IMG/VR virus record: IMGVR_UViG_3300025704_000078
Location: 1 to 31,800 of that record
Length of the DNA stretch: 31,800 nt
Strand: one strand, 5' to 3'
From: a virus
Shown: piece after piece, positions 1 to 29,769 of the stretch
Layout of the letters: each line of letters begins with the position of its first letter
Numbering within the stretch: position 1 is the stretch's first letter
Position numbers and translations under genes: made by a program
The notes under the pieces: model-generated
Told to the model about the DNA's origin: nothing
The model's database searches: none
What the model saw: only the letters and a program-made list of their open reading frames with translations

Positions 1-550
1 AACATTAGGTCCTGTATATGGAAAACAATGGCGCGATTTCTGTACTGTAGATCAGCTTAAAAATCTCGTGTATAGCATCAATACTAATCCAGATTCTAGA
101 CGCCTTATGGTCAGCGCGTGGGCTCCACATGAGCTTAACGCTATGGCTTTGCCGCCGTGTCATTACGCTTTTCAAGTTTATATCAACAATGGGGTTATGG
201 ATTTGATGTGGATGCAACGATCGGCTGATGTTTTCCTAGGCTTACCTTACGATATTGTAATGTATGGATTGCTATTAGAAATGCTAGCAAAAGGATCTGG
301 CTTAAAAGCAGGTCAATTAATCGGTCAATTAGGTGATTGTCACTTATACAATAATCACTTAGAGCAAGCTGAATTGTTCTCAGGTAGATCAAAGCGAGCA
401 CTACCGAATCTAATACTAGAAGAAGGTATTAAAATATCTAAAAAGATGGATGCAAGGGGTGCAATGATAATCCCAGAGAAAAGTGAAATTAAATTAAATA
501 ACTACAACCCTTACGCAGCTATAAAAGCACCACTAAGTGTTGGCAAATAA
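1..550 (+). CDS. Thymidylate synthase-family enzyme, 3' part; probably dCMP-directed
   Basis: The reading frame is open from base 2, so the 5' end lies outside the window. The first residues, LGPVYGKQWRDF, are the classic ThyA motif. The catalytic Cys is in LPPCHYAF (codon 158-160). The Arg/Ser of MQRSADVF lies 20 residues after it and the His/Tyr of GDCHLY 61 and 63 residues after it, exactly the spacing of E. coli ThyA (C146, R166, H207, Y209). The C-terminal IKAPLSV is also typical. At the place of E. coli Asn177, 31 residues after the Cys, there is Asp (LGLPYDI, codon 251-253). In T4 dCMP hydroxymethylase that position is Asp179, and an Asn-to-Asp change moves thymidylate synthase towards dCMP. 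The enzyme may therefore methylate or hydroxymethylate dCMP rather than make dTMP; the missing N-terminus prevents a decision. First gene of a plus-strand nucleotide-metabolism operon. Confidence 0.93.
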   Translation, partial: TLGPVYGKQWRDFCTVDQLKNLVYSINTNPDSRRLMVSAWAPHELNAMALPPCHYAFQVYINNGVMDLMWMQRSADVFLGLPYDIVMYGLLLEMLAKGSGLKAGQLIGQLGDCHLYNNHLEQAELFSGRSKRALPNLILEEGIKISKKMDARGAMIIPEKSEIKLNNYNPYAAIKAPLSVGK

Positions 551-559
551 ATTAAAAAT

Positions 560-1363
560 ATGTATTATATATACCACATACCTGGTAAAAAAATAGGAGT
601 TACACGTAATCTTAAAACAAGAGTTACCCTTGTACAAGGATATAAGGAGGGAGAGTATGAAGTTCTTGAACAGTCAACCGATATAGATTATATATCAGAC
701 CGTGAAAAAGAGCTTCAAAAATTTTATAAATATACCGTCGACTTTAACGACTTTAAAACATTAACTAATCAATTTAATCAAGGAAAAAAAATGGCAATAA
801 ACGTAACAGAACAAACAACAACATTCCCAGTAAGTAAGAAGGATCTAAAAGATTACTTAGCTAAAAATACAGGCTTTAAAATAGCAATCGGCAAAACTAA
901 TGTAGAGTTAAATGAAGGGGTACAAAAATGGATATTAAAAAATAGTAGGACATCTCATTTTAGACAAACTAGGAGTTATGTATACAACAAGTCTTTGTTA
1001 AACTTTCTAGAAGAAGAAGAAAAAGAGACTTTGTTCAGTAAAAAGGATAAGACAGCGCCACAGCCAGCACCTAATGTTTATGATTCAATTAGAGAATGGG
1101 CGTGTGCTAAAGGGATATATAAATCTGGAGACTGCAAAACTCAATATATAAAGCTAATGGAAGAGTCTGGCGAATTAGCCGATGCTCTATTAAAAAACAA
1201 CGATAGTGAAATTATCGATGCTATTGGCGATATGGTAGTTGTATTAACTAATTTAGCTGAGCTTAGAGGATATAGTATTGAAAGTTGTGTTTTATCAGCA
1301 TACAACACTATTAAAAGTAGAGAAGGTAAAATGGTTAACGGAACTTTTGTAAAAAACGCATAA
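560..1363 (+). CDS. GIY-YIG-like / MazG-type nucleotide pyrophosphohydrolase fusion
   Basis: A 267-residue protein with two recognisable parts. Residues 1-60 resemble a small, degenerate GIY-YIG nuclease: YYIYHI stands for the GIY strand, KIGVT for YIG, followed by Arg residues and a Glu in REKELQKF. Residues about 175-267 are MazG-like (all-alpha NTP pyrophosphatase): KLMEESGEL followed by EIIDAIGDM supplies the ExxE...ExxD metal-binding pattern. MazG and the related T4 dCTPase hydrolyse (d)NTPs to monophosphates, which fits its place after a thymidylate-synthase homologue. The middle (about 78-170) is unassigned. An ATG at 791 after GGAAAAAAA could be an internal start giving a free MazG form, but the frame is continuous and the fused form is the simplest reading. 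No substrate can be named from sequence. Confidence 0.8.
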   Translation: MYYIYHIPGKKIGVTRNLKTRVTLVQGYKEGEYEVLEQSTDIDYISDREKELQKFYKYTVDFNDFKTLTNQFNQGKKMAINVTEQTTTFPVSKKDLKDYLAKNTGFKIAIGKTNVELNEGVQKWILKNSRTSHFRQTRSYVYNKSLLNFLEEEEKETLFSKKDKTAPQPAPNVYDSIREWACAKGIYKSGDCKTQYIKLMEESGELADALLKNNDSEIIDAIGDMVVVLTNLAELRGYSIESCVLSAYNTIKSREGKMVNGTFVKNA

Positions 1364-1364
1364 T

Positions 1365-1658
1365 ATGGATAAACAAACAATAGAATTTAGAGACCCTGTA
1401 GTCAAACGTGTAGTTAATAAATTTGTATCAAGATCTGACGTAGGCTTTGCAAAGTACGGCATAACGCTTCAAGACGATCCCTCAGAGATGTTTGCATGGC
1501 TTAATCATTTGCAAGAAGAGCTTATGGATGCTGTATTATATTTACAAAAAGCTAAAGAGACATACACAGACAAAATTCAAGACGAGATGATAGCAAATAT
1601 GGAGCCTTATGAGATTTCAAACCATGTAAAAATGTCAGAAAATGAGGAAGCCATTTAA
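1365..1658 (+). CDS. Small helical MazG-like phage protein
   Basis: A 97-residue protein starting one base after the previous stop. The central part, with KYG, then WLNHLQEELMDAVLYLQKAK, is an amphipathic helix rich in acidic residues, like the MazG-like (all-alpha pyrophosphohydrolase) proteins of many phages, in which EExxD residues bind metal. I see no complete second metal-binding helix, so it may be a minimal or degenerate member. It follows another MazG-type gene and overlaps the endonuclease gene by 17 bases, which argues for co-translation in one operon. Nucleotide-pool clean-up is the likely role (inference). Confidence 0.6.
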   Translation: MDKQTIEFRDPVVKRVVNKFVSRSDVGFAKYGITLQDDPSEMFAWLNHLQEELMDAVLYLQKAKETYTDKIQDEMIANMEPYEISNHVKMSENEEAI

Positions 1659-2100
1659 AAGAAAAAGCGGAAAGCGTGGACCAGTAAGAGCAAAGAAGGT
1701 ATCATTTGATGGTATCGACTTTGCCTCCGGGCTGGAGAAGCACATGTACCAAGCTTTAAAAGAAGCAGGTATTAAATCGAAGTACGAAGGAGAAACATTT
1801 GTGTTACTACCTGGATTCCATTTTGACAATGAGGTTTATGAAAGACAAGCTAATGGAAAAGGGGAATACAAAAATAGAGGAGAGAAAAGAATCTTACCTA
1901 TCAAGTATACCCCTGATTTTATTGGTGACGATTTTATAATCGAAACAAAAGGTAGAGCTAACGAATCATTTCCTATGAGATGGAAACTGTTTAAAAGATT
2001 AGTTATGAATCAATTTCCTAATGTAACGTTGTATAAACCACAAAATCAAAAAGAATGTCAAGAGACTGTAAGAATAATACTTTCGAAGCGAAACGGTTAG
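1642..2100 (+). CDS. T7 endonuclease I-like Holliday junction resolvase
   Basis: A 152-residue protein. SGLEKHMYQALKEAGIKSKYE (Glu32) aligns with the N-terminal Glu20 segment of T7 endonuclease I. KYTPDFIGDDFIIETKGR supplies Asp92, Glu101 and Lys103, matching the T7 catalytic D55, E65 and K67. Length is close to T7 endonuclease I (149 residues). In T7 the enzyme resolves branched DNA before packaging and helps degrade host DNA; the same role is likely here. The N-terminus is strongly basic (KPFKRKSGKRGPVRAKK), suitable for DNA binding. A spacer with many charged residues (about 62-85) separates the Glu32 helix from the PD-(D/E)xK core and is longer than in T7. The start overlaps the preceding gene by 17 bases. 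Confidence 0.9.
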   Translation: MRKPFKRKSGKRGPVRAKKVSFDGIDFASGLEKHMYQALKEAGIKSKYEGETFVLLPGFHFDNEVYERQANGKGEYKNRGEKRILPIKYTPDFIGDDFIIETKGRANESFPMRWKLFKRLVMNQFPNVTLYKPQNQKECQETVRIILSKRNG

Positions 2101-2234: not shown

Positions 2235-2373
2235 AAAAGAAAGAGAGTGGTCACTCACACTAGGAATTTATCCCGGCATATTGCTAGGGTTTAGAAGTTA
2301 TCGAGAAGAAACGTATACAACACATGTGCTATACATGCCTTTTATAGATTTAGCTTTTGTAATTGATAACTAA
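2221..2373 (+). CDS. Small hypothetical protein (50 aa)
   Basis: ATG at 2221 begins a 50-codon frame whose TAA overlaps the ATG of the next gene (TAATG, 2371-2375), an arrangement typical of translational coupling in phage operons. The product begins MKQSRKEREWSL, then GIYPGILLGFRSY, and ends in a hydrophobic stretch (VLYMPFIDLAFVID). The composition looks like a small folded beta protein rather than a membrane helix. Short proteins with a similar YPG-GFRSY pattern occur in other marine phages, from memory and without a search. No function is known. Confidence 0.6.
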   Translation: MKQSRKEREWSLTLGIYPGILLGFRSYREETYTTHVLYMPFIDLAFVIDN

Positions 2374-3341
2374 TGGGATTATTCGATGAGCGCGTAGCGT
2401 ACAAACCGTTTGAATATCCTAAGTATTACACAGAAGGATGGTTAAAGCAAGCACAGGCTTTTTGGTTACATACTGAAATACCGATGCAAAGTGATATTAA
2501 AGATTGGAAAGAAAAATTAAATGAAAAAGAAAAAAACCTCGTCGGAAATATTTTACTTGGGTTCGCTCAAACAGAATGCGCAGTTTCCGATTATTGGACT
2601 CAAAACGTTGTTGGATGGTTTCCGAAACACGAAATCCAACAAATGGCCATGATGTTTGGCTCACAAGAAACAGTACACGCGGTAGCATATAGTTACTTAA
2701 ATGAAACATTAAAATTAGAAGATTATGAGGCGTTTTTACACGAACCTGCTACGGCTGCTCGTTTTGACAACCTTGTTGCTAGTGGGGATAATGGCCGAGT
2801 TGGCATTGCTAGATCACTTGCTATCTTTTCCGCCTTTGCTGAAGGTGTTAGTTTGTATTCCGCTTTTGCAGTTCTGTATTCTTTTCAGCTGCGTAATTTA
2901 CTTAAGGGCATTGGACAGCAAATGAAGTGGTCAGTAAGAGATGAATCATTGCACAGTAAAATGGGATGTATGTTATTCCGCGATATGTGTGACGAAGATG
3001 ATCAATTACTAAGCTTATGTCGAGAAGATGTAATAAAAGCTGCTGAATCGATGGTAAAACTGGAAGCTAACTATATAGACAAGATGTTTGAAATGGGTGA
3101 TATAGAAGGTATTTCAGCCAATGACTTAAAGCATTTTATTAAAAAGAGAACAAATGAGAAGTTAGTTGAATTAGGTTATGTTGACTTAGGTAATTACTTT
3201 GCGTATGATGAAAAAGCCTCAGCTAATTTAGATTGGTTTTATCATTTAACCGGAGGAGTGACTCACACTGATTTCTTTGCAATGAGATCAACTGACTATT
3301 CAAAACCAACAGAAGGCGAGGACTTCGAAGATATGTGGTAG
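2373..3341 (+). CDS. nrdB: Ribonucleoside-diphosphate reductase, class I small (beta) subunit
   Basis: A 322-residue protein carrying the full class I diiron set: Asp44 (IKDW), Glu99 and His102 (QETVHAVAY), Glu157 (FAEGVS), and Glu191 and His194 (RDESLH). Tyr106, seven residues after Glu99, matches the radical Tyr122 of E. coli NrdB, so the enzyme should form a tyrosyl radical. It transfers the radical to the alpha subunit encoded next, making deoxyribonucleotides for phage DNA synthesis. The length is somewhat below that of E. coli NrdB (376). The C-terminal end, GEDFEDMW, has the acidic and aromatic character of the peptide that docks onto NrdA. It starts inside the stop codon of the preceding small gene. 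Confidence 0.96.
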   Translation: MGLFDERVAYKPFEYPKYYTEGWLKQAQAFWLHTEIPMQSDIKDWKEKLNEKEKNLVGNILLGFAQTECAVSDYWTQNVVGWFPKHEIQQMAMMFGSQETVHAVAYSYLNETLKLEDYEAFLHEPATAARFDNLVASGDNGRVGIARSLAIFSAFAEGVSLYSAFAVLYSFQLRNLLKGIGQQMKWSVRDESLHSKMGCMLFRDMCDEDDQLLSLCREDVIKAAESMVKLEANYIDKMFEMGDIEGISANDLKHFIKKRTNEKLVELGYVDLGNYFAYDEKASANLDWFYHLTGGVTHTDFFAMRSTDYSKPTEGEDFEDMW

Positions 3342-3374: not shown

Positions 3375-5093
3375 ATGTGGAATGAAAATTGGAAAAAAGG
3401 TGTCGATTGGCCTGAATGGGGTGACAACGACGTATACAAGCAGACAATATCCGGGGGATATCTATTCGACGGAGAAACACCTAGAGAAGCATACCAAAGA
3501 GTCGCTAAAACTGTGGCTAGAAGACTTTACAAACCGGAAATGGCCGAAACGTTTTTTAATTATATTTGGAATGGCTGGTTGTGTCTTGCTTCTCCGGTAC
3601 TTAGTAATACCGGTACTGATCGTGGTTTACCTATTAGCTGCTTTGGTATTGATGTAGCTGATAGCGTCTGGGATATCGGTCAAAAGAATACAGAAATGAT
3701 GATGCTTGCTAAAAACGGCGGGGGAGTAGGCATCGGCATTAATCAAATAAGACCTGCTGGAGCTAAAATAACTGGTAATGGAACATCTGACGGAGTTGTG
3801 CCTTTTTGTAAAATATACGATTCAACTATACTTGCCACTAACCAAGGATCTGTGCGAAGAGGAGCTGCATCAATCAATATTAACATTGAACACGCTGATT
3901 TTGAGGAGTGGCTCGAAATACGAGAACCTAGCGGAGACGTTAATCGTCAATCGCTCAATGTCCACCAGTGTGCTGTGGTCGGCGATAAGTTTATGCGAAA
4001 GCTGGAAGCTGGAGATAAAGAAGCGAGGGGGAAATGGTCTAAACTGTTACAGAAACGTAAAGGAACTGGAGAGCCTTATATCCTTTTTAAAGGAAATACA
4101 AACAAAAATAACCCAGCAGCTTATAGAGCCAATGGATTAAAAGTGCACATGACTAATATATGTAGTGAAATAACGCTGCATACAGACGAAAGTCACAGCT
4201 TCGTGTGCTGTTTATCAAGTTTAAATTTAGCTAAATATGAAGAATGGAAAGACACGAATCTTATACATGACGCCACTTGGTTTCTTGATGGAGTTATGGA
4301 AGAATTTATTCAAAGAGCAAAGGGACTTAAAGGATTTGAAAATGCGATACGATCGGCTCAGAAAGGAAGGGCTTTGGGCTTGGGTGTTCTTGGATGGCAT
4401 ACATATCTCCAGGATAAAGGTATTCCTTTTGAAGGTTTGCTTGCTCAGTTTGAAACTAGGAAAATATTTTCGCAAATTAAAGTTGAAAGTGAAAGAGCCT
4501 CAAGATCTCTTGCTGAAGTTTACGGCGAGCCTTTGTGGTGCGCTGGTACTGGTTTGCGTAATACTCACTTGCGCGCTGTTGCTCCCACTGTTAGTAATTC
4601 GAAACTTAGTGGGAATGTTTCGCCAGGAATAGAGCCTTGGGCAGCAAATGTTTTTACAGAGCAAGGAGCAAACGGAACTTTCATTAGAAAGAATCCTACA
4701 TTAGTTAAAGTATTAGAAGAACATAATTTAAACACGAATGAGATTTGGAGGAAGATCCTGGATGATGACGGTAGTGTTCAGGGTATCGATGCTTTGGATA
4801 GTATTACTGTGGGTCATAACATACCAGTTAAGGAAGTTTTTAAAACTTTTAAAGAGATTAATCAATTGGAATTAGTTAATCAAGCTGGATTGCGTCAGGC
4901 TTACATAGATCAGTCCGTTAGCTTGAATCTAGCGTTTCCTAAAGAAGCAACGCCAAAGTGGCTTAATACAGTCCATTTCGATGCTTGGAAGAAAGGTGTT
5001 AAGACTTTGTACTATATGAGAACTGAAAGTGTATTGCGAGGAGATATTGCTCAGAATGCCATGAGTGCAGAATGCTTAGCTTGTGATGGCTAA
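3375..5093 (+). CDS. nrdA: Ribonucleoside-diphosphate reductase, class I large (alpha) subunit, short form
   Basis: A 572-residue catalytic subunit. Cys89 (GLPISCFGI) and Cys278 (SFVCCLSSLNL) are the redox pair. Asn261, Cys263 and Glu265 (NICSEI) correspond to E. coli N437, C439 and E441. Tyr546-Tyr547 (TLYYMRT) are the radical-transfer tyrosines, and PTVSNSKLSGNVSPGIEP matches the substrate-binding region. The C-terminal reducible pair is CLAC (Cys567, Cys570), spaced CxxC rather than the CxxxxC of E. coli. The protein is much shorter than E. coli NrdA (761) and starts near the catalytic core, so the N-terminal ATP cone that mediates dATP inhibition is absent; the phage enzyme probably escapes that feedback. 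It is the last gene of the plus-strand arm, 33 bases after nrdB and directly before a terminator. Confidence 0.96.
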   Translation: MWNENWKKGVDWPEWGDNDVYKQTISGGYLFDGETPREAYQRVAKTVARRLYKPEMAETFFNYIWNGWLCLASPVLSNTGTDRGLPISCFGIDVADSVWDIGQKNTEMMMLAKNGGGVGIGINQIRPAGAKITGNGTSDGVVPFCKIYDSTILATNQGSVRRGAASININIEHADFEEWLEIREPSGDVNRQSLNVHQCAVVGDKFMRKLEAGDKEARGKWSKLLQKRKGTGEPYILFKGNTNKNNPAAYRANGLKVHMTNICSEITLHTDESHSFVCCLSSLNLAKYEEWKDTNLIHDATWFLDGVMEEFIQRAKGLKGFENAIRSAQKGRALGLGVLGWHTYLQDKGIPFEGLLAQFETRKIFSQIKVESERASRSLAEVYGEPLWCAGTGLRNTHLRAVAPTVSNSKLSGNVSPGIEPWAANVFTEQGANGTFIRKNPTLVKVLEEHNLNTNEIWRKILDDDGSVQGIDALDSITVGHNIPVKEVFKTFKEINQLELVNQAGLRQAYIDQSVSLNLAFPKEATPKWLNTVHFDAWKKGVKTLYYMRTESVLRGDIAQNAMSAECLACDG

Positions 5094-20025: not shown

Positions 20026-23000
20026 CTACGGTGGGCAAGTACCCCAAACAGGTTTAGAGGCGTTAGTTAAAGGTGCGTTTAAGCTAAACTCAAATGGTTC
20101 TGAACCAATATTTGTAACACACCAACTTGATATATTTTCATCAAAATTTAATGCGTTCCTAAACATCCTATCCATGTTAAGTACATTGGCAGTGTCCCAA
20201 GAGCCAATAGCCTGGTTGAAATCACTTGCCCCATTAAACATATAACGCATGTCAGTTACATTACTTGTGTTCCAATTACCTATATTTTGATCGAAATCAG
20301 CGGCTACATTGAACATAAATGCCATATCAGTAACATTACTTGTATCCCAATTGCTTAAAGTTTTATTGAAGTCATACGCTCCATCAAACATACCTCTCAT
20401 AGTGGTCACATTACTCACGTCCCAAGAATTTAAGTCTTTATCAAATCTATAAGCATAACTAAACATTTTACTCATATCTTCGACTTTACTAACATCCCAA
20501 GTGTTAACCGGTTGATTAAATACATCAGCATTATAAAACATGTTAGACATAGTTTCTACAGAACTAGTGTCCCAACCACTAAGATCTTGGTTAAAAGTGT
20601 TTGCCCCGCTAAACATAAAGTCCATACGCTCTACATTACTTACAGTCCAAAAGCTTATATCTTGATTGAAAAGTGTAGCGTCAGTAAACATCGAAGTCAT
20701 ATAAATAACCTCGGTTGTATCCCAATCTAAAGGTTGATTAAAAATATATGCTCTTTGAAACATACGAGACATGTCTACTACAGAACTAGGATCCCAATAA
20801 GTAATGTTGCCGTCGAATACATTCGCTTCTAAAAACATACTACTCATATCAGTCACATTACTCACGTCCCAAGCACTGATATCTCCATTGAAAGATTGAG
20901 CAAACTCAAACATTCTAGACATATCAATTGCTCCGCTAACATCCCATTCGCTAATATCACCATTGAATGTTGTTTTATCTTTAAAAGCACTTGAATAATT
21001 AGTCACTCTGCTAACATCCCAATCTGCCATCAGTCCAAATATAGGTACACTACCGCCGTTTACTGGATCTGCCAAAAGAGATAACTCCACAAGATCGTGA
21101 AAATTATCATCCGTAATAAATTGACATTCAGAGTCTGCACGCGCACTTACTTGTACATTAAACACTGAAGTTGCAGGGCCTGTTATACTGGTAGCTCTAC
21201 CGATTCCCTGTACGTTAAATTCTTTTGAGTCTACATTGTTATCACAATCATCTACAAAAAACGTAGGCAACCCTTTTATATAATTGTAGTACTTACCCTC
21301 TTTATTTATAAGTTCTTTAATTTCTCCCTCCTGTAGATCTGTTACTATAGAGTTAGCATACCAACCCTCAGTTGTCGAAACTTCTGTAGGCACTAATCGC
21401 TGAGCTTGTAATTGAGCTAAAGATAGTTGTTTATCACCGGTTGCTGTAGTTTTATATATGTATTTACGAGAATCCGTTCCGTTATAACTAATGGTTCTAA
21501 AATCCTTTACGGCTATAGAGCTTTCATTAAAAATATCAGTAAAAGAACTTTCATAGTAAGGCCCTAAGCTCACGTGTGATGGACCTATACCGTAGAAGTT
21601 ATTATACGATGTATTTGCATTCATTTCCCAGATCTTACCTGAGTTGAAAGTGTAGTACACGTTATTTAAACTAACACCGTCTTCGGGTATATATACTTTT
21701 CTAGAGGTCCAGCCGTTTACAGCATCTTTAAAAGATATTGTAGTCGAATATGTAGGGTACTCATTAATAAAAGCCCCGCATTCAGGGTCTTTATTAAGCC
21801 TGTCTGTTTTACCAGCCCCTAATGTTTGTTGCCAATAAGGAGTAAGAGTATTTAGAGTTACATTGTAATTACTTTTATCAGCATCCCAAGATCCGATTAT
21901 TCTATTGTTAACAGGTAAGTTGTCTTGAAAAAAGCCACTCATGCCATATTCTGAAACAGGTGTTATTCCGTCGTTAGATAATCTTATAACAGCTCCTCTA
22001 TTTGAATCTACAAAATACATTCTAAATCCGAATTCAGCAAATGATTCTGGATTTGTACCAATACCATATTCTCCTTGGTATGTTATTGTTTGGCCAAGAA
22101 CAGCTCTGTTGGATGTTACATTCGCGCTGCCATCGGCATTAAATAAAGCATCCTTATTAGCTAGAATCTTCATTGACTTGTTTTCGCACAATGTAACCAA
22201 ATCAGTGTCTCTAGCGTACAGTTTTTGAATTGAACCATATTCTGGGTTCACATCTTTTGTTATACTTTCCGCTTGAATAAATTGATTTAAACCATTAATA
22301 CCTGATGTTGAATTAAATATTTGTGAAAATATTAAACCATTAGATCTTGTTTCTTGCTCATAAGGTTCATCTAAAGTAGCAGAAGCCTTAACGCCATTAG
22401 ACATAGTAGGAGCGTTGTAATCATCTCTAATTCTGTCAGACTCCACTCCGTTACCAAATGAATAACAATTAAACCAATCTAATTCATGGGGGTCTCCGTG
22501 CTCATCTATAGGATAATTCCCTGATACTTCGTAATATATATCAAGCTCAGTAGCTTCTTTTGGCTCTGTTTCAAAAACAGCGGGGTTGGAACTTGTAAAT
22601 GATTTATCATTGTCATCTAAACCTAAAAACTCCATTCCTATAAAATTGTCTCCCTGAGCACTTGTTTGATAAGTCCATTCAGCAATACCACTACCGTCTG
22701 TTTGCTTTGTTGGATCCCATTGTAAACCAAACAAATCACCCTGCACGGGCTCTATATCTAATATCCACCAAGTTGTTTGATTCGTGGTATTAACAAAAGC
22801 GCCTCCTCGTTTACAATCGTAGTTTGTTAGCTTCTGTTCAACTGTTTTGGTTATTCTGTAAACAGTGTTGTTTGGATCAGCTTTACCGTTACCCGCATCA
22901 ACAAATCTAAACAGTGCTCCAGCTGTATTTAACTGAGTTAGTAATGCTGGATTGGATAACCTTAAGCCTTCGCTTCTACCGCTTCCATATCCTCCAGACC

Positions 23001-25671
23001 ATGCAACCCTTAATTTACCAGGTGTGCCTGTGCCTCCCTCAGCTACAGAGCTAGCTCCCGTGTAGTTACCTCTACTACACCTAGTTGCTACCGCTGATAT
23101 GTAAAATCGTGAGTAATTTCCTTGGGCATCTTGTTTTGTCCAGTTATTACCACCTACATTTCCTTTACCCCAAAAACTATTACTCTCACGAGACCCTGTT
23201 AAATAATAAGTGTAAGCTAAAGCTTTTCTTAAATAACTAGCACCTTGATTTGCTCCGGCATTTATAATTTTACTTTGAAGCAAAGCATCTTGATTTACCT
23301 TAACAAAAAATCTTCCTGTAAATTCCGGCTTATTTAATGTTTGAATTTCAGCTAATTCTAATGTTAATCCAGGAACCCTGGTGTTGAATCCATAAGGCTC
23401 TGTAGATGTGAAATTCATATCCGCACCAAAAGACTCGCTACAAGTTATCCTTACCTCTTGAACGCTACCGCCACCTACTAATCCAAAGGATGACACTTTA
23501 TACCATTCACTAGTGGAACCTGATGTTAAAACCCTTACTTGCAGTCCAGATTGACTTCTTGTAATTTCTCCAAAATCTTTGTCAAATTTTTCAACATTAT
23601 CAAACCAAATTTCGCTAGCTCCCTCTATTGGAAATCCTCCTACAGAATCCCATCCTATAGATTGTCCTTTAGATAGCCTAGTTTCTTTTAAATACTGGGG
23701 AGCTTCATTTTCAATAGCTATAACCTTATATTTAGCTTCTTCTGTTACAGGCTTATCGTTGTCATGCTCCTTCTTTAATACAAGGAAAGTTTCCTCGTCT
23801 ATTTTATTTCTTTCAGCAGATGGGAATGATAACCATATATTACCGTCTTCAGCATCGTAAAATCTGTCTAAACACAAATTATAATACTCTTGACTAGTCT
23901 CTTTTACGTAGTATTTAAAAGTGGAAAAAGTCTTGTTTTGAGCGTAGTAAGGTGTGTTATTAAGTAACTGAGCTTTTATGCTATTAGCAAATTGAGCCTC
24001 TCCTTTTTCAATTACAACAGAAGCGTCTTTACCTGTGAATACAGGAGTAGTCCTACCGTATTCATCTTGATAAGCAACACCTACTTGGTAGGTTCTAATG
24101 CTCTTTAAAGATGGATATACTCTATTGCCATCTAAACCTACTCCCTGAGTAACACCTAGGTCGTCTATAGTTAATATTTCTTTAGAAACAGTAGTTACAT
24201 TTAGATTAACTTGAAGAGGATCTAAAGTGGATGTTAACAGGTTAAAGTTCTGCGTGTAATTCGCATATATTAATCTGTTAGCAATTACTTCTTGCCCCAA
24301 AGCAAATCTAGGTACATTATCATAAGGTCTTAATAACTGATTACTCTGTACAACAGAGCTTATTATTTCGCTTGATATATTAAATGAATTAGAAGTCCAT
24401 TCCTCGTCGTTTTCTTTAAAAGTATCAACTACATATACGTTACCGTTGTCTGATGCTTTGTATAATATATCTACACTTGTTACACCGTCTGGTATATCTG
24501 CAGGTCTAAATCCTGAAATTTTTAGTTGCCTTATGTTATTAACCATACCTAAGTTGTACCCTTCTTTAGGTGAATAACTAAACGCTCCTGGAAGAAACGC
24601 TGGATTGGTAAAAGGAGAATAAGCTGATACTTCGTTATTTTTATATTTATATCTGTAACCGAATCTAGCAAATCTAAATTCAAAAAAAGGAGGCTGCTGT
24701 TCTAGTACAACATCGTAGGAAGTTAATTGTAAAGAACCTCCGTCATCAGACGATCCTACCGAAAGTACTGTAACTATAGCTCCTGTTTGATTGCCCCCTG
24801 TTCCTATAAGACTTTCTATGTTAACTCGAATAGAAGCTCCTGGATCTAAGGGATCGGCATTAGAATTTGTTAACAGTAGCTTTTGGCCTACTCTGTAAAA
24901 AGGTAAGTTTTGTCCTAGCCATGTTAGGGTTTGCGGCCCACTAGATGGAGTCATAGGCCCTATTTGAGTAGGGTCGCCTCCAGGTACTTGTTCGTAAAAA
25001 CTGTATAAGGTTGAAGTTTCTACATTAGCAGGATCTCCTTGGTCGTCCACTTCTGATGTTGAATAAGCCTGTATTACAGGCGGCTGCAGTGGGAATTTTT
25101 TTATAACAGTTGTGTCTGATTCTATAAAATCCCTGCCATAAAATTGCGATTGTGTAAAGAAATCAGGTGTAGATCCAACCCATTCTGATATATATATCTG
25201 CTTAGGTTCCGTTTGGTTATCGGTCCAAAGCAATATACCTTCTATTATGTTTATCCCCGTGATTAAATGGTCAGCATTGAAGTTAAAAACACTATTAACA
25301 TCTACTATCAAAGGTAAAGTAACTTTAGTTACTGTATTATAGCTAGCTATTATATCTGCTTCTTCTGAAGTAATAAACCAGTATATCATATCTGAATTAG
25401 GCTCTGCAATAGAACCTATACAAGTAGCATTAGTTAAAGCACTTATATATATAGCTGGATGCCATACAGTATATTGCTTTGTAATGGGATTGTAGCTAGA
25501 ATATGATTTTTCAATATTACCTTTTAAATTCTGAAATGTACCCACCTGAGAAGTGTCAGATGAAGCAACCTCTAAATTTAAAGCATCTCGATATTCACCA
25601 TTAGGAAGTAAACGCTCGTCAAGGTCTTTGTTCATTTTCCCTGACGTAAACGTGTGAATTAATTCTGGCAT
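20026..25671 (-). CDS. Large tail (nozzle/stabilisation-type) protein with C-terminal BspA-like repeats, 1881 aa
   Basis: The N-terminus (IHTFTSGKMNKDLDERLLPN followed by GEYRDALN) resembles the large tail-stabilisation or tail-tube B-type proteins of marine Bacteroidota podoviruses and crAss-like phages, recalled without a search. Residues up to about 1500 are mainly beta with many Asp/Asn/Gly turns. Residues 1547-1845 are twelve copies of a 25-residue repeat of the form WDVSNVTDMSSMF..A..FNQ, the BspA or surface-protein (DUF285-type) pattern. A capping segment with two Cys (SSWCVTNIG ... WGTCPP) ends the protein, as in many flavobacterial surface proteins. The core probably builds the tail tip, and the repeat arm probably binds the cell surface. 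Transfer of the repeat block from a host gene is plausible. Confidence 0.85.
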   Translation of the reverse strand: MPELIHTFTSGKMNKDLDERLLPNGEYRDALNLEVASSDTSQVGTFQNLKGNIEKSYSSYNPITKQYTVWHPAIYISALTNATCIGSIAEPNSDMIYWFITSEEADIIASYNTVTKVTLPLIVDVNSVFNFNADHLITGINIIEGILLWTDNQTEPKQIYISEWVGSTPDFFTQSQFYGRDFIESDTTVIKKFPLQPPVIQAYSTSEVDDQGDPANVETSTLYSFYEQVPGGDPTQIGPMTPSSGPQTLTWLGQNLPFYRVGQKLLLTNSNADPLDPGASIRVNIESLIGTGGNQTGAIVTVLSVGSSDDGGSLQLTSYDVVLEQQPPFFEFRFARFGYRYKYKNNEVSAYSPFTNPAFLPGAFSYSPKEGYNLGMVNNIRQLKISGFRPADIPDGVTSVDILYKASDNGNVYVVDTFKENDEEWTSNSFNISSEIISSVVQSNQLLRPYDNVPRFALGQEVIANRLIYANYTQNFNLLTSTLDPLQVNLNVTTVSKEILTIDDLGVTQGVGLDGNRVYPSLKSIRTYQVGVAYQDEYGRTTPVFTGKDASVVIEKGEAQFANSIKAQLLNNTPYYAQNKTFSTFKYYVKETSQEYYNLCLDRFYDAEDGNIWLSFPSAERNKIDEETFLVLKKEHDNDKPVTEEAKYKVIAIENEAPQYLKETRLSKGQSIGWDSVGGFPIEGASEIWFDNVEKFDKDFGEITRSQSGLQVRVLTSGSTSEWYKVSSFGLVGGGSVQEVRITCSESFGADMNFTSTEPYGFNTRVPGLTLELAEIQTLNKPEFTGRFFVKVNQDALLQSKIINAGANQGASYLRKALAYTYYLTGSRESNSFWGKGNVGGNNWTKQDAQGNYSRFYISAVATRCSRGNYTGASSVAEGGTGTPGKLRVAWSGGYGSGRSEGLRLSNPALLTQLNTAGALFRFVDAGNGKADPNNTVYRITKTVEQKLTNYDCKRGGAFVNTTNQTTWWILDIEPVQGDLFGLQWDPTKQTDGSGIAEWTYQTSAQGDNFIGMEFLGLDDNDKSFTSSNPAVFETEPKEATELDIYYEVSGNYPIDEHGDPHELDWFNCYSFGNGVESDRIRDDYNAPTMSNGVKASATLDEPYEQETRSNGLIFSQIFNSTSGINGLNQFIQAESITKDVNPEYGSIQKLYARDTDLVTLCENKSMKILANKDALFNADGSANVTSNRAVLGQTITYQGEYGIGTNPESFAEFGFRMYFVDSNRGAVIRLSNDGITPVSEYGMSGFFQDNLPVNNRIIGSWDADKSNYNVTLNTLTPYWQQTLGAGKTDRLNKDPECGAFINEYPTYSTTISFKDAVNGWTSRKVYIPEDGVSLNNVYYTFNSGKIWEMNANTSYNNFYGIGPSHVSLGPYYESSFTDIFNESSIAVKDFRTISYNGTDSRKYIYKTTATGDKQLSLAQLQAQRLVPTEVSTTEGWYANSIVTDLQEGEIKELINKEGKYYNYIKGLPTFFVDDCDNNVDSKEFNVQGIGRATSITGPATSVFNVQVSARADSECQFITDDNFHDLVELSLLADPVNGGSVPIFGLMADWDVSRVTNYSSAFKDKTTFNGDISEWDVSGAIDMSRMFEFAQSFNGDISAWDVSNVTDMSSMFLEANVFDGNITYWDPSSVVDMSRMFQRAYIFNQPLDWDTTEVIYMTSMFTDATLFNQDISFWTVSNVERMDFMFSGANTFNQDLSGWDTSSVETMSNMFYNADVFNQPVNTWDVSKVEDMSKMFSYAYRFDKDLNSWDVSNVTTMRGMFDGAYDFNKTLSNWDTSNVTDMAFMFNVAADFDQNIGNWNTSNVTDMRYMFNGASDFNQAIGSWDTANVLNMDRMFRNALNFDENISSWCVTNIGSEPFEFSLNAPLTNASKPVWGTCPP
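20137..21033 (-). repeat. Twelve 25-residue BspA-type repeats (75-base period)
   Basis: Every unit has Trp-Asp near position 4-6, Val near 10, Met-Phe near 15-16 and Phe-Asn near 23-24. Eleven units are 25 residues long and one (residues beginning QPLDWDTTEV) is one shorter. The spacing of Trp and Met-Phe is strictly kept while surface positions vary. The units encode part of the tail protein. Confidence 0.9.
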
Positions 25672-28344: not shown

Positions 28345-29769
28345 TTATGCTTTTTTCAACAACACAAAATTGTTAGCAGCTTGTACACATAAACATCTTT
28401 CTGATAAGAAATGAACGTTCATTGCGTCTTCGTCGCTTGTATAGTTTCCACCAACAGATCCAGTGATCCAAGACTTCATCTTTCTGTCATCAGCTTCTGA
28501 AGCTCTGTAACGTATGTGTAAGAATGGTCTTGAAATATTCTGTCCTAATGATTGGTCATATACAGTTGAAGTTCCAGCAGGTACAATAACACCTTCAACA
28601 TCTCCAACTAAACCACGTGTAGTAGCATCGTTTAAATATTTCCAGTCTGTCTTGTAAAAGTCGTAAGAACCTCTTCTGAATCCAGAGAATCCTAAGTTAA
28701 GTGCCATATCTTCTGAATTTTCGAATACACCATAAGATGTTCCTCCAGTTCCATAAGAATTTTGAGCAGCTAACATATTGTCAATGCCTAAAGAAGTTGC
28801 ACGGTCTAAGAATAACATATTCTCTTCAATCGCTCCTTGTTTGTCAAGTTCACCTAAGATAGCGTCAAAATCTTCTAATCCAGATCCAGCAGCTCCAAAG
28901 TCAGCATCAGTATAAACTAATCCTCTATTTTCAAGAGCAGAGAATAATCCGTCAGATCCAGAGATTTGAGTACCTCCACCAAGTCCAGCAGCTGGTGCAA
29001 TTGGATTAGCAGCTTTTTCAGCTTCAATCATACTCATCTCTAATTGATCTTCGAAACGAATTCTTGCTTCGTGCTCAGATTTTAAGTACCATAAGTACCC
29101 AGAAGTTCCAGCTTCAGTAGTTACCTCAACCCATCCTATTTGTGCAGTATCAGAACCGTTTACAGCATACTTATCTCTAAGGATGATCGGTTTGTTATTG
29201 AATTGCTCAAAAGCAGCATCTACAGATGTACCAGCATTACTTGTACCTTTAGCATATTCAGAACCGTATACAAATACTTTACCGTCAGCATGAGCAGTAA
29301 TAGCTCCAGCATATCCAGCTACAGTAAGTGTTACATCTCCAGTACCACTTGGAGCACTAACAGCCTGTACGTAAGCTTTTTCTACAACCAATCCATTAGC
29401 AGAGGCAACAACGATTGTTGCTCCAGGTCCAATAAGATTAGTAGATGCGTTGTTAGCGTCACCAGGAATTACTACAGTTGTCGCTGTAGATACGATTGAG
29501 TCGTATGCAATGTGTAAACGCCCTTGCTCAGACCAAACTACTTGATCAGATGCCATAGGCATTTCAGCTCCTACCATACGTAAGAATCCAGAGATAGTAC
29601 GGTTTCCGTATCTTTCTACTTCTTTCTCATATACTTCTGGTAAGAATTGTTGTGTAAAATCTAAATCGTTTAGAGTTAGATAGTTGTCGTTAAACAATGT
29701 TTGTGTAGGTCTTGGCGTCAAGTGAGCTAATGCTCCTGCGCTACCCGTAAATGATCCGTTTGCGGCCAT
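28345..29769 (-). CDS. Major capsid protein
   Basis: A 474-residue protein preceded by a scaffold-like gene and the portal, the standard position for the capsid gene. The N-terminus (RPTQTLFNDNYLTLNDLDFT, then LPEVYEKEVERYGNRTISGF and LRMVGAEMPMASDQVVWSEQ) reads like capsid proteins of marine Bacteroidota phages. Residues about 95-190 form a Gly/Ala/Val-rich beta insertion that may project from the shell. The C-terminal half alternates helix and strand as in HK97-type folds (fold is inference). Codon use differs from the neighbours: Phe is nearly always TTC, TAC/AAC/GAC and CGT are common, as expected for the most abundant protein. The start has no Shine-Dalgarno motif. Confidence 0.88.
   Translation of the reverse strand: MAANGSFTGSAGALAHLTPRPTQTLFNDNYLTLNDLDFTQQFLPEVYEKEVERYGNRTISGFLRMVGAEMPMASDQVVWSEQGRLHIAYDSIVSTATTVVIPGDANNASTNLIGPGATIVVASANGLVVEKAYVQAVSAPSGTGDVTLTVAGYAGAITAHADGKVFVYGSEYAKGTSNAGTSVDAAFEQFNNKPIILRDKYAVNGSDTAQIGWVEVTTEAGTSGYLWYLKSEHEARIRFEDQLEMSMIEAEKAANPIAPAAGLGGGTQISGSDGLFSALENRGLVYTDADFGAAGSGLEDFDAILGELDKQGAIEENMLFLDRATSLGIDNMLAAQNSYGTGGTSYGVFENSEDMALNLGFSGFRRGSYDFYKTDWKYLNDATTRGLVGDVEGVIVPAGTSTVYDQSLGQNISRPFLHIRYRASEADDRKMKSWITGSVGGNYTSDEDAMNVHFLSERCLCVQAANNFVLLKKA

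Follow-up and report, generated by a model that had tools for sequence, protein, structure and literature searches.

The 31,800-nt virus record IMGVR_UViG_3300025704_000078, referred to below as the window, begins inside a thymidylate synthase (TS) gene. The open reading frame is therefore open at its 5' end, with about 125 amino acids of the N-terminus missing at the contig end. The encoded portion is 87% and 86% identical to two full-length relatives (L002 and L003, respectively). It shows the marks of the TS superfamily (PF00303), namely a profile match, the catalytic Cys, the phosphate Arg, His207 and Tyr209. An earlier sequence-only reading of this DNA had placed Arg, His and Tyr at +20, +61 and +63 from the catalytic Cys, as in E. 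coli ThyA, and the codons (218–220, 341–343 and 347–349) fall exactly there. It had also reported Asp in place of Asn177 at +31; this was likewise seen, and the residue recurs in all 142 distinct relatives described below. The engineered L. casei TS (PDB 1njc) is among the best PDB sequence matches, with Asp at the 177-equivalent position in the alignment. Identities of 44–47% to solved TSs mean that the fold is already fixed.

The window and its relatives share the gene order primase-helicase, TS, MazG-like, 97-aa protein, DUF1064/resolvase-like nuclease, NrdB and NrdA (Table 1); the primase-helicase of that order lies upstream of the window's start. The MazG-like gene lies directly 3' of TS in 141 of 141 loci with enough sequence, and its product possibly supplies dCMP from dCTP. 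The N-terminus of this protein (window 560–800, + strand; MYYIYHIPGKKIGVTRNLKTRV...) shows similarity to the beginning of a GIY-YIG nuclease domain and may be a fusion or a remnant.

Table 1. Features of the window, with strand and basis of assignment.
Feature	Position	Strand	Basis
TS homologue, C-terminal 182 aa, probable dCMP methylase	2..550	+	Pfam PF00303 (Thymidylat_synt) positions 89-266, E 4.5e-54
Leu codon at Cys-3 (Leu143); Asp/Glu there marks hydroxymethylases	149..151	+	Alignment; criterion from PMC6400193
Catalytic Cys codon (Cys146, E. coli ThyA)	158..160	+	Alignment
Asp codon at Asn177 position, the pyrimidine-specificity residue (Cys+31)	251..253	+	Alignment with relatives and ThyAs
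Met codon at Ser180 position; site changed in every Asp177 sequence sampled	260..262	+	Residue comparison
MazG-like NTP pyrophosphohydrolase (C-terminal domain), directly downstream of TS	560..1363	+	Pfam MazG 1.3e-5, PRA-PH 7.9e-5; phrog_1992 3.4e-33
Small conserved protein, 97 aa, between MazG and nuclease genes	1365..1658	+	ORF/relatives; no Pfam match
DUF1064 nuclease / Holliday-junction-resolvase-like protein	1642..2100	+	Pfam DUF1064 5.4e-10; phrog_190 1.2e-14
NrdB, ribonucleotide reductase small subunit	2373..3341	+	Pfam 1e-55; NCBIfam NF007186 over cut-off
NrdA, ribonucleotide reductase large subunit	3375..5093	+	Pfam 9.7e-90; NCBIfam NF006577 over cut-off
Virion structural (head) protein, lineage marker	28345..29769	-	phrog_13704 2.5e-97

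Relatives of the head protein in GenBank phages were found only in phages of Flavobacterium, Cellulophaga and Maribacter and in unassigned phages. The clade thus appears to consist of uncultured phages related to flavobacterial viruses, its probable hosts being read from these relatives alone. Assignment to a crAss-like lineage, first prompted by relatives from Bacteroidota, was considered and rejected; the terminase matched only phages of Flavobacterium, Cellulophaga, Tenacibaculum and Maribacter, and one unassigned phage. An 1881-aa virion protein (window 20026–25671, - strand) ends in a long run of short repeats of the form W[DN][VT]S.VT.M..MF....F[ND], DUF285/BspA-like, and possibly serves adhesion or receptor binding.

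Relatives of the TS were sought in IMG/VR using search patterns that excluded the Asp itself. A first scan yielded 80 relatives (63–87% identity, mostly N-terminally complete), all 80 with Asp177, and two further scans started from divergent members brought the total to 142 distinct sequences. Asp177, Leu143, His147, Tyr94 and Trp80 are present in all 142 by alignment, while Trp83 is replaced by Asp or Asn, even though the most divergent members average only 62–64% identity. Asn177 was found in all 80 of the closest bacterial homologues and in all 76 E. coli-like phage ThyAs (Asp in 0 of 156). Since Asp is present in every relative and Asn in all ThyA comparators, chance or sequencing error does not account for the change. 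The nearest full-length GenBank phage matches are only ~44% identical to the clade TS, and those examined, from Bacteroides, Acinetobacter, Arthrobacter, Bacillus and Salmonella phages, have Asn177. A second difference is seen at Ser180: of the 173 Asn-type sequences in the main sample 171 keep it, whereas no Asp-type sequence sampled does; two remote Asn-type phage TSs also lack it. The loss of Ser180 is common to the clade and the Xp12-like group, as are the changes F to Y at 176 and N to D at 68. The window enzyme and all 142 relatives thus have the residue of a dCMP-directed TS where ThyA has its dUMP-specificity Asn. According to PMC8670742, which cites Hardy & Nalivaika 1992 and Liu & Santi 1992, Asn-to-Asp TS mutants take dCMP, and the second of these studies described one such engineered enzyme as a deoxycytidylate methylase. 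Specificity for dCMP, as first proposed, is the best reading of the clade-wide change.

A tree joining T4 gp42, the Xp12 type and ThyA had been proposed in the sequence-only reading. Xp12, in whose DNA 5-methylcytosine replaces all cytosine, was represented by its relatives DLP4 and PaMx28 (PMC9206674; PMC7653180). In two TS trees built with FastTree, the Asp clade was monophyletic (support 0.99 and 1.0) and placed among ordinary ThyAs. T4 gp42 and the TSs of DLP4, PaMx28 and Roseobacter phage RDJL Phi 2 fell far from it. Because the clade nests within ThyA, apart from both T4 gp42 and the Xp12-relative TSs, the Asn-to-Asp switch appears to be independent of the known cases. A position deep within ordinary ThyA had been named as a sign against dCMP specificity. 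The clade does branch inside ThyA, but its uniform Asp suggests an independent switch and not ordinary ThyA function. Naming a donor lineage from the sister group was abandoned, as the sister group (Felix O1-like TSs in one tree) shifts with sampling. Two cultured phages, Microbacterium phage Clayda5 (L344, 1704–2618) and RDJL Phi 2 (L340, 2210–3100), encode annotated thymidylate synthases with Asp177; both enzymes could be dCMP-directed and amenable to laboratory testing.

The product had been proposed as either 5-methyl- or 5-hydroxymethyl-dCMP, with further hydroxymethylase-specific changes to be sought in the N-terminal half. The relatives supply that half, and the published signature is absent from the clade. 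As proposed, the signature has two elements, an Asp or Glu at Cys-3 and a Ser or Thr lying two positions ahead of the catalytic Tyr; Asp145 is required for hydroxymethylation by the T4 enzyme (PMC6400193). Cys-3 is Leu in all 142 relatives. At the Ser94 position of the Ser94-x-Tyr96 pair, the window and 131 of 142 relatives carry Pro; nine relatives have Lys there, one has Arg and one has Ser. The C-terminal TS tail, which closes the active site and which T4 gp42 lacks, is kept, with nearly all members ending in IKAPLSVG(K) or KAELSVGK. Trp80 and Leu143 are needed for hydride transfer in TS. Both are kept in all relatives; the window shows Leu143, with Trp80 lying in its missing N-terminal half. 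Because the hydroxymethylase signature is absent and Trp80, Leu143, Tyr94 and the tail are retained, 5-methyl-dCMP is favoured over 5-hydroxymethyl-dCMP as the predicted product, narrowing the original proposal to its methyl option.

Nucleotide metabolism was surveyed in 31 long relatives (46–67 kb), each with exactly one TS. None of these 31 records gave an above-cut-off match to ThyX, dCMP deaminase or (trimeric) dUTPase. The DNMK model for T4 gp1-family dNMP kinases likewise found no match in them; it matches T4, and not DLP4, PaMx28 or RDJL Phi 2. No kinase-like Walker A ORF was seen in four clade genomes. A missing T4-type kinase was set aside as decisive counter-evidence, since the Xp12 relatives DLP4 and PaMx28 also lack it. 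The MetaGPA-associated DNA ligase domain PF14743 was dropped as support, being present in only 7 of the 31. The survey likewise gave no match to a DNA polymerase of family A. One surveyed IMG/VR record of 61,451 bases (G008, the L020 record) repeats its first 40 bases at 61,324 and appears to be a complete genome of ~61.3 kb, either circular or with terminal repeats; as it has no family A polymerase match, this phage probably relies on host replication. It also encodes a pyrimidine-dimer DNA glycosylase (PF03013, T4 denV-like; 42621–43112, - strand) with homologues in G001 and G009; the family occurs in 63% of sampled clade genomes and is absent from sisters. The 129,537-base record G004 (IMG/VR 3300047157_000162) has a second, broken TS-like match ~60 kb away, and could be an assembly chimaera of two phage genomes.

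A phage with shielded cytosine need not avoid host restriction sites. We therefore compared observed counts of four-base palindromes with those expected from tri- and dinucleotides, and called a C-containing palindrome purged when it fell below 0.2 of expectation with at least 6 expected. Within the clade, purging was seen in 0 of 37 TS-flanking loci and 0 of 32 late regions or whole records (window included). Median observed/expected ratios for GATC were 1.11 and 1.02, respectively. TCGA was present once for 7 expected in two divergent clade loci, numbers too small to be called purging. A sister lineage was identified via the head protein, including 23 contigs without ThyA or ThyX in the sequence examined. 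Sixteen of these 23 were purged, typically with GATC at 0 of 50–90 expected; other palindromes often purged in sisters were CATG, CTAG, CGCG and GGCC. Purging extended to 21 of 27 further sisters (TS status unknown), 9 of 13 second sister regions and 3 of 4 GenBank relatives. Up to five palindromes were completely purged in single sister loci (L473, L478, L511, L447, L500, L520 and others), in sets differing by contig. This suggests that the hosts of the sister phages exert type II restriction that is both strong and varied.

The clade is monophyletic in the head-protein tree (support 1.0), with purged tips numbering 0 of 28 in the clade versus 40 of 53 elsewhere. Compared with a single rate, a model forbidding gain of purging in the clade was better by 14.7 log units. 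Diversity in the clade equals or exceeds that of its sisters (MCP identity 0.70 versus 0.79). Relief from avoidance of C-containing palindromes is thus a property of the clade, and lends independent support to the earlier proposal that the phage genome carries modified cytosine; we infer such a content for virion DNA. 5-Methylcytosine alone could give this relief, because Xp12 5-methylcytosine DNA resists 196 of 218 type II enzymes (PMC7653180). Every informative palindrome includes a C and a G, so the avoidance signal by itself does not tell which base is modified. The contrast represents one clade and one evolutionary event, and clade and sisters differ throughout the replication module, many of the clade's module genes being absent from sisters.

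We consider it probable that the clade encodes a ThyA-derived dCMP methylase which, together with dCTP hydrolysis by MazG, leads to 5-methylcytosine DNA resistant to type II restriction. Asp at the Asn177 position would recognise and protonate the cytosine ring. The retained ThyA machinery (Cys146, Trp80, Leu143, Tyr94 and the C-terminal lid) would transfer the methylene from methylene-tetrahydrofolate, and hydride transfer would then reduce it to yield 5-methyl-dCMP. The MazG-like neighbour probably cuts dCTP to dCMP, both feeding the methylase and removing unmodified dCTP, while the phage ribonucleotide reductase would provide deoxynucleotides. Host or unrecognised kinases would take 5-methyl-dCMP to the triphosphate for incorporation by the replication machinery. 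DNA fully or largely substituted with 5-methylcytosine would resist host type II restriction, removing the need to purge sites.

The enzyme might act as proposed and site avoidance still have been lost for another reason, such as a scarcity of type II systems in the hosts, an anti-restriction gene that escaped recognition, or another module-encoded modification. The clade being a single lineage, the many module genes absent from sisters and several conserved small proteins of no assigned function are all compatible with this. However, plausible ORFs of four genomes contained no methyltransferase-like motif, the scanned G001 and G008 proteins included no further base-modification family, and the diversity of the clade means that any shared host quirk must have persisted. 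We regard such a cause as unlikely. A dCMP hydroxymethylase like T4 gp42, giving 5-hydroxymethylcytosine DNA that is perhaps further modified, is distinctly unlikely. The clade enzyme shares with T4 an Asp at the specificity position (T4 Asp179) and the loss of Trp83, and the lost avoidance is compatible with any cytosine modification. Every member nevertheless has Leu at Cys-3, where the T4 enzyme needs its Asp145 (PMC6400193), and the Ser94 position holds Pro, Lys, Arg or, once, Ser. The TS-type tail, the remoteness of T4 gp42 in the TS tree and the lack of a glycosyltransferase or other hydroxymethylcytosine-decorating gene among scanned G001 and G008 ORFs also argue against it.

Two further explanations would leave the DNA unmodified or the substrate unchanged. 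Host dCMP deaminase might convert 5-methyl-dCMP to dTMP, bypassing any need for dUMP, as dCMP deaminases may act on 5-methyl-dCMP. The relatives' lack of dUTPase, dCMP deaminase, ThyX and T4-type dNMP kinase suits this bypass, as does the ThyX that sister phage MW202828 encodes instead; modified dCTP, moreover, would require another kinase. Yet it explains neither the lost restriction-site avoidance nor why Asp should have beaten Asn, and most sampled sister contigs have no TS at all, so that thymidylate supply is not generally needed. We judge it very unlikely. We give equally little likelihood to an enzyme that tolerates Asp and still has dUMP as its physiological substrate, be it an ordinary thymidylate synthase or one of dual specificity. 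Asn-to-Asp TS mutants may retain some dUMP activity, and the clade enzyme nests in ThyA at 44–47% identity with His147, Leu143, Trp80 and the tail kept. Against this, Asp is fixed across 142 sequences of considerable divergence, Ser180 is lost as in other Asp177 groups, no phage dUTPase or dCMP deaminase is present to feed dUMP, and the avoidance signal speaks for another function.

The preferred reading, of a dCMP methylase and 5-methylcytosine DNA, can be extended to the group as a whole. A large, uncultured clade of flavobacterial-type podoviruses would have turned ThyA into a MazG-coupled dCMP methylase independently, replaced genomic cytosine by 5-methylcytosine with no recognisable phage nucleotide kinase or DNA polymerase, and so escaped type II restriction that site avoidance was erased. 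We hold this full statement to be about evenly balanced between right and wrong. The association of Asp177 TSs with cytosine-modified phages is already known from MetaGPA; this clade, its independent ThyA-type origin, the constant MazG linkage and the vanished restriction-site avoidance appear to be new. If correct, this would be a further, evolutionarily independent origin of a dCMP-directed TS, in a group with no cultured member known to have one, and nature would have repeated the classic laboratory Asn-to-Asp switch. Comparing site avoidance between sister lineages with and without a candidate enzyme also suggests a sequence-only test for genome-wide base modification. The phosphorylation and incorporation of 5-methyl-dCMP by host enzymes would be testable predictions.

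The clade enzyme remains close to ThyA (E. coli, Felix O1-like phages and Bacteroides phages), with 40–47% identity overall and Trp80, Leu143, His147, Tyr94 and the tail in common, but Asn177, Ser180 and Trp83 of ThyA are all substituted. It has one change identical to that of the engineered mutants (L. casei N229D, PDB 1njc; E. coli N177D) on a ThyA-like active site, whereas its own change is natural, clade-wide and accompanied by others at 68, 83, 176 and 180. T4 gp42 is likewise a phage-encoded member of the TS superfamily with Asp at the specificity position, but T4 combines Asp145 (Cys-3), Ser94 and no tail with a T4-type dNMP kinase; the clade has Leu at Cys-3, mostly Pro at the Ser94 site and a tail, and the T4-type kinase was not found.

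The Xp12 dCMP methylase, compared through its relatives, and the TSs of DLP4, PaMx28 and RDJL Phi 2 share Asp177, Tyr176, Asp68, the loss of Ser180 and a Cys-3 residue other than the T4-type Asp. A nucleotide pyrophosphohydrolase gene adjoins TS in DLP4 and PaMx28, and the product in Xp12 DNA is 5-methylcytosine. These enzymes differ in forming a separate clade at ~35% identity over ~120 residues, in having Pro147 (His in the clade), Asn143 (Leu in the clade) and Phe83, and in being encoded with DHFR and dCMP deaminase. In MetaGPA, TS and PRA-PH co-occur in cytosine-modified contigs, and in sewage and coastal-water samples Asp177 is associated with the modified contigs (PMC8670742). The clade matches this pattern: its phage contigs, too, combine an Asp177 TS and a neighbour of the PRA-PH/MazG type. 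Position 147 also separates modified from unmodified contigs (PMC8670742), and here the clade differs in keeping the ThyA-like His147, a point against the dCMP methylase reading that calls for caution.
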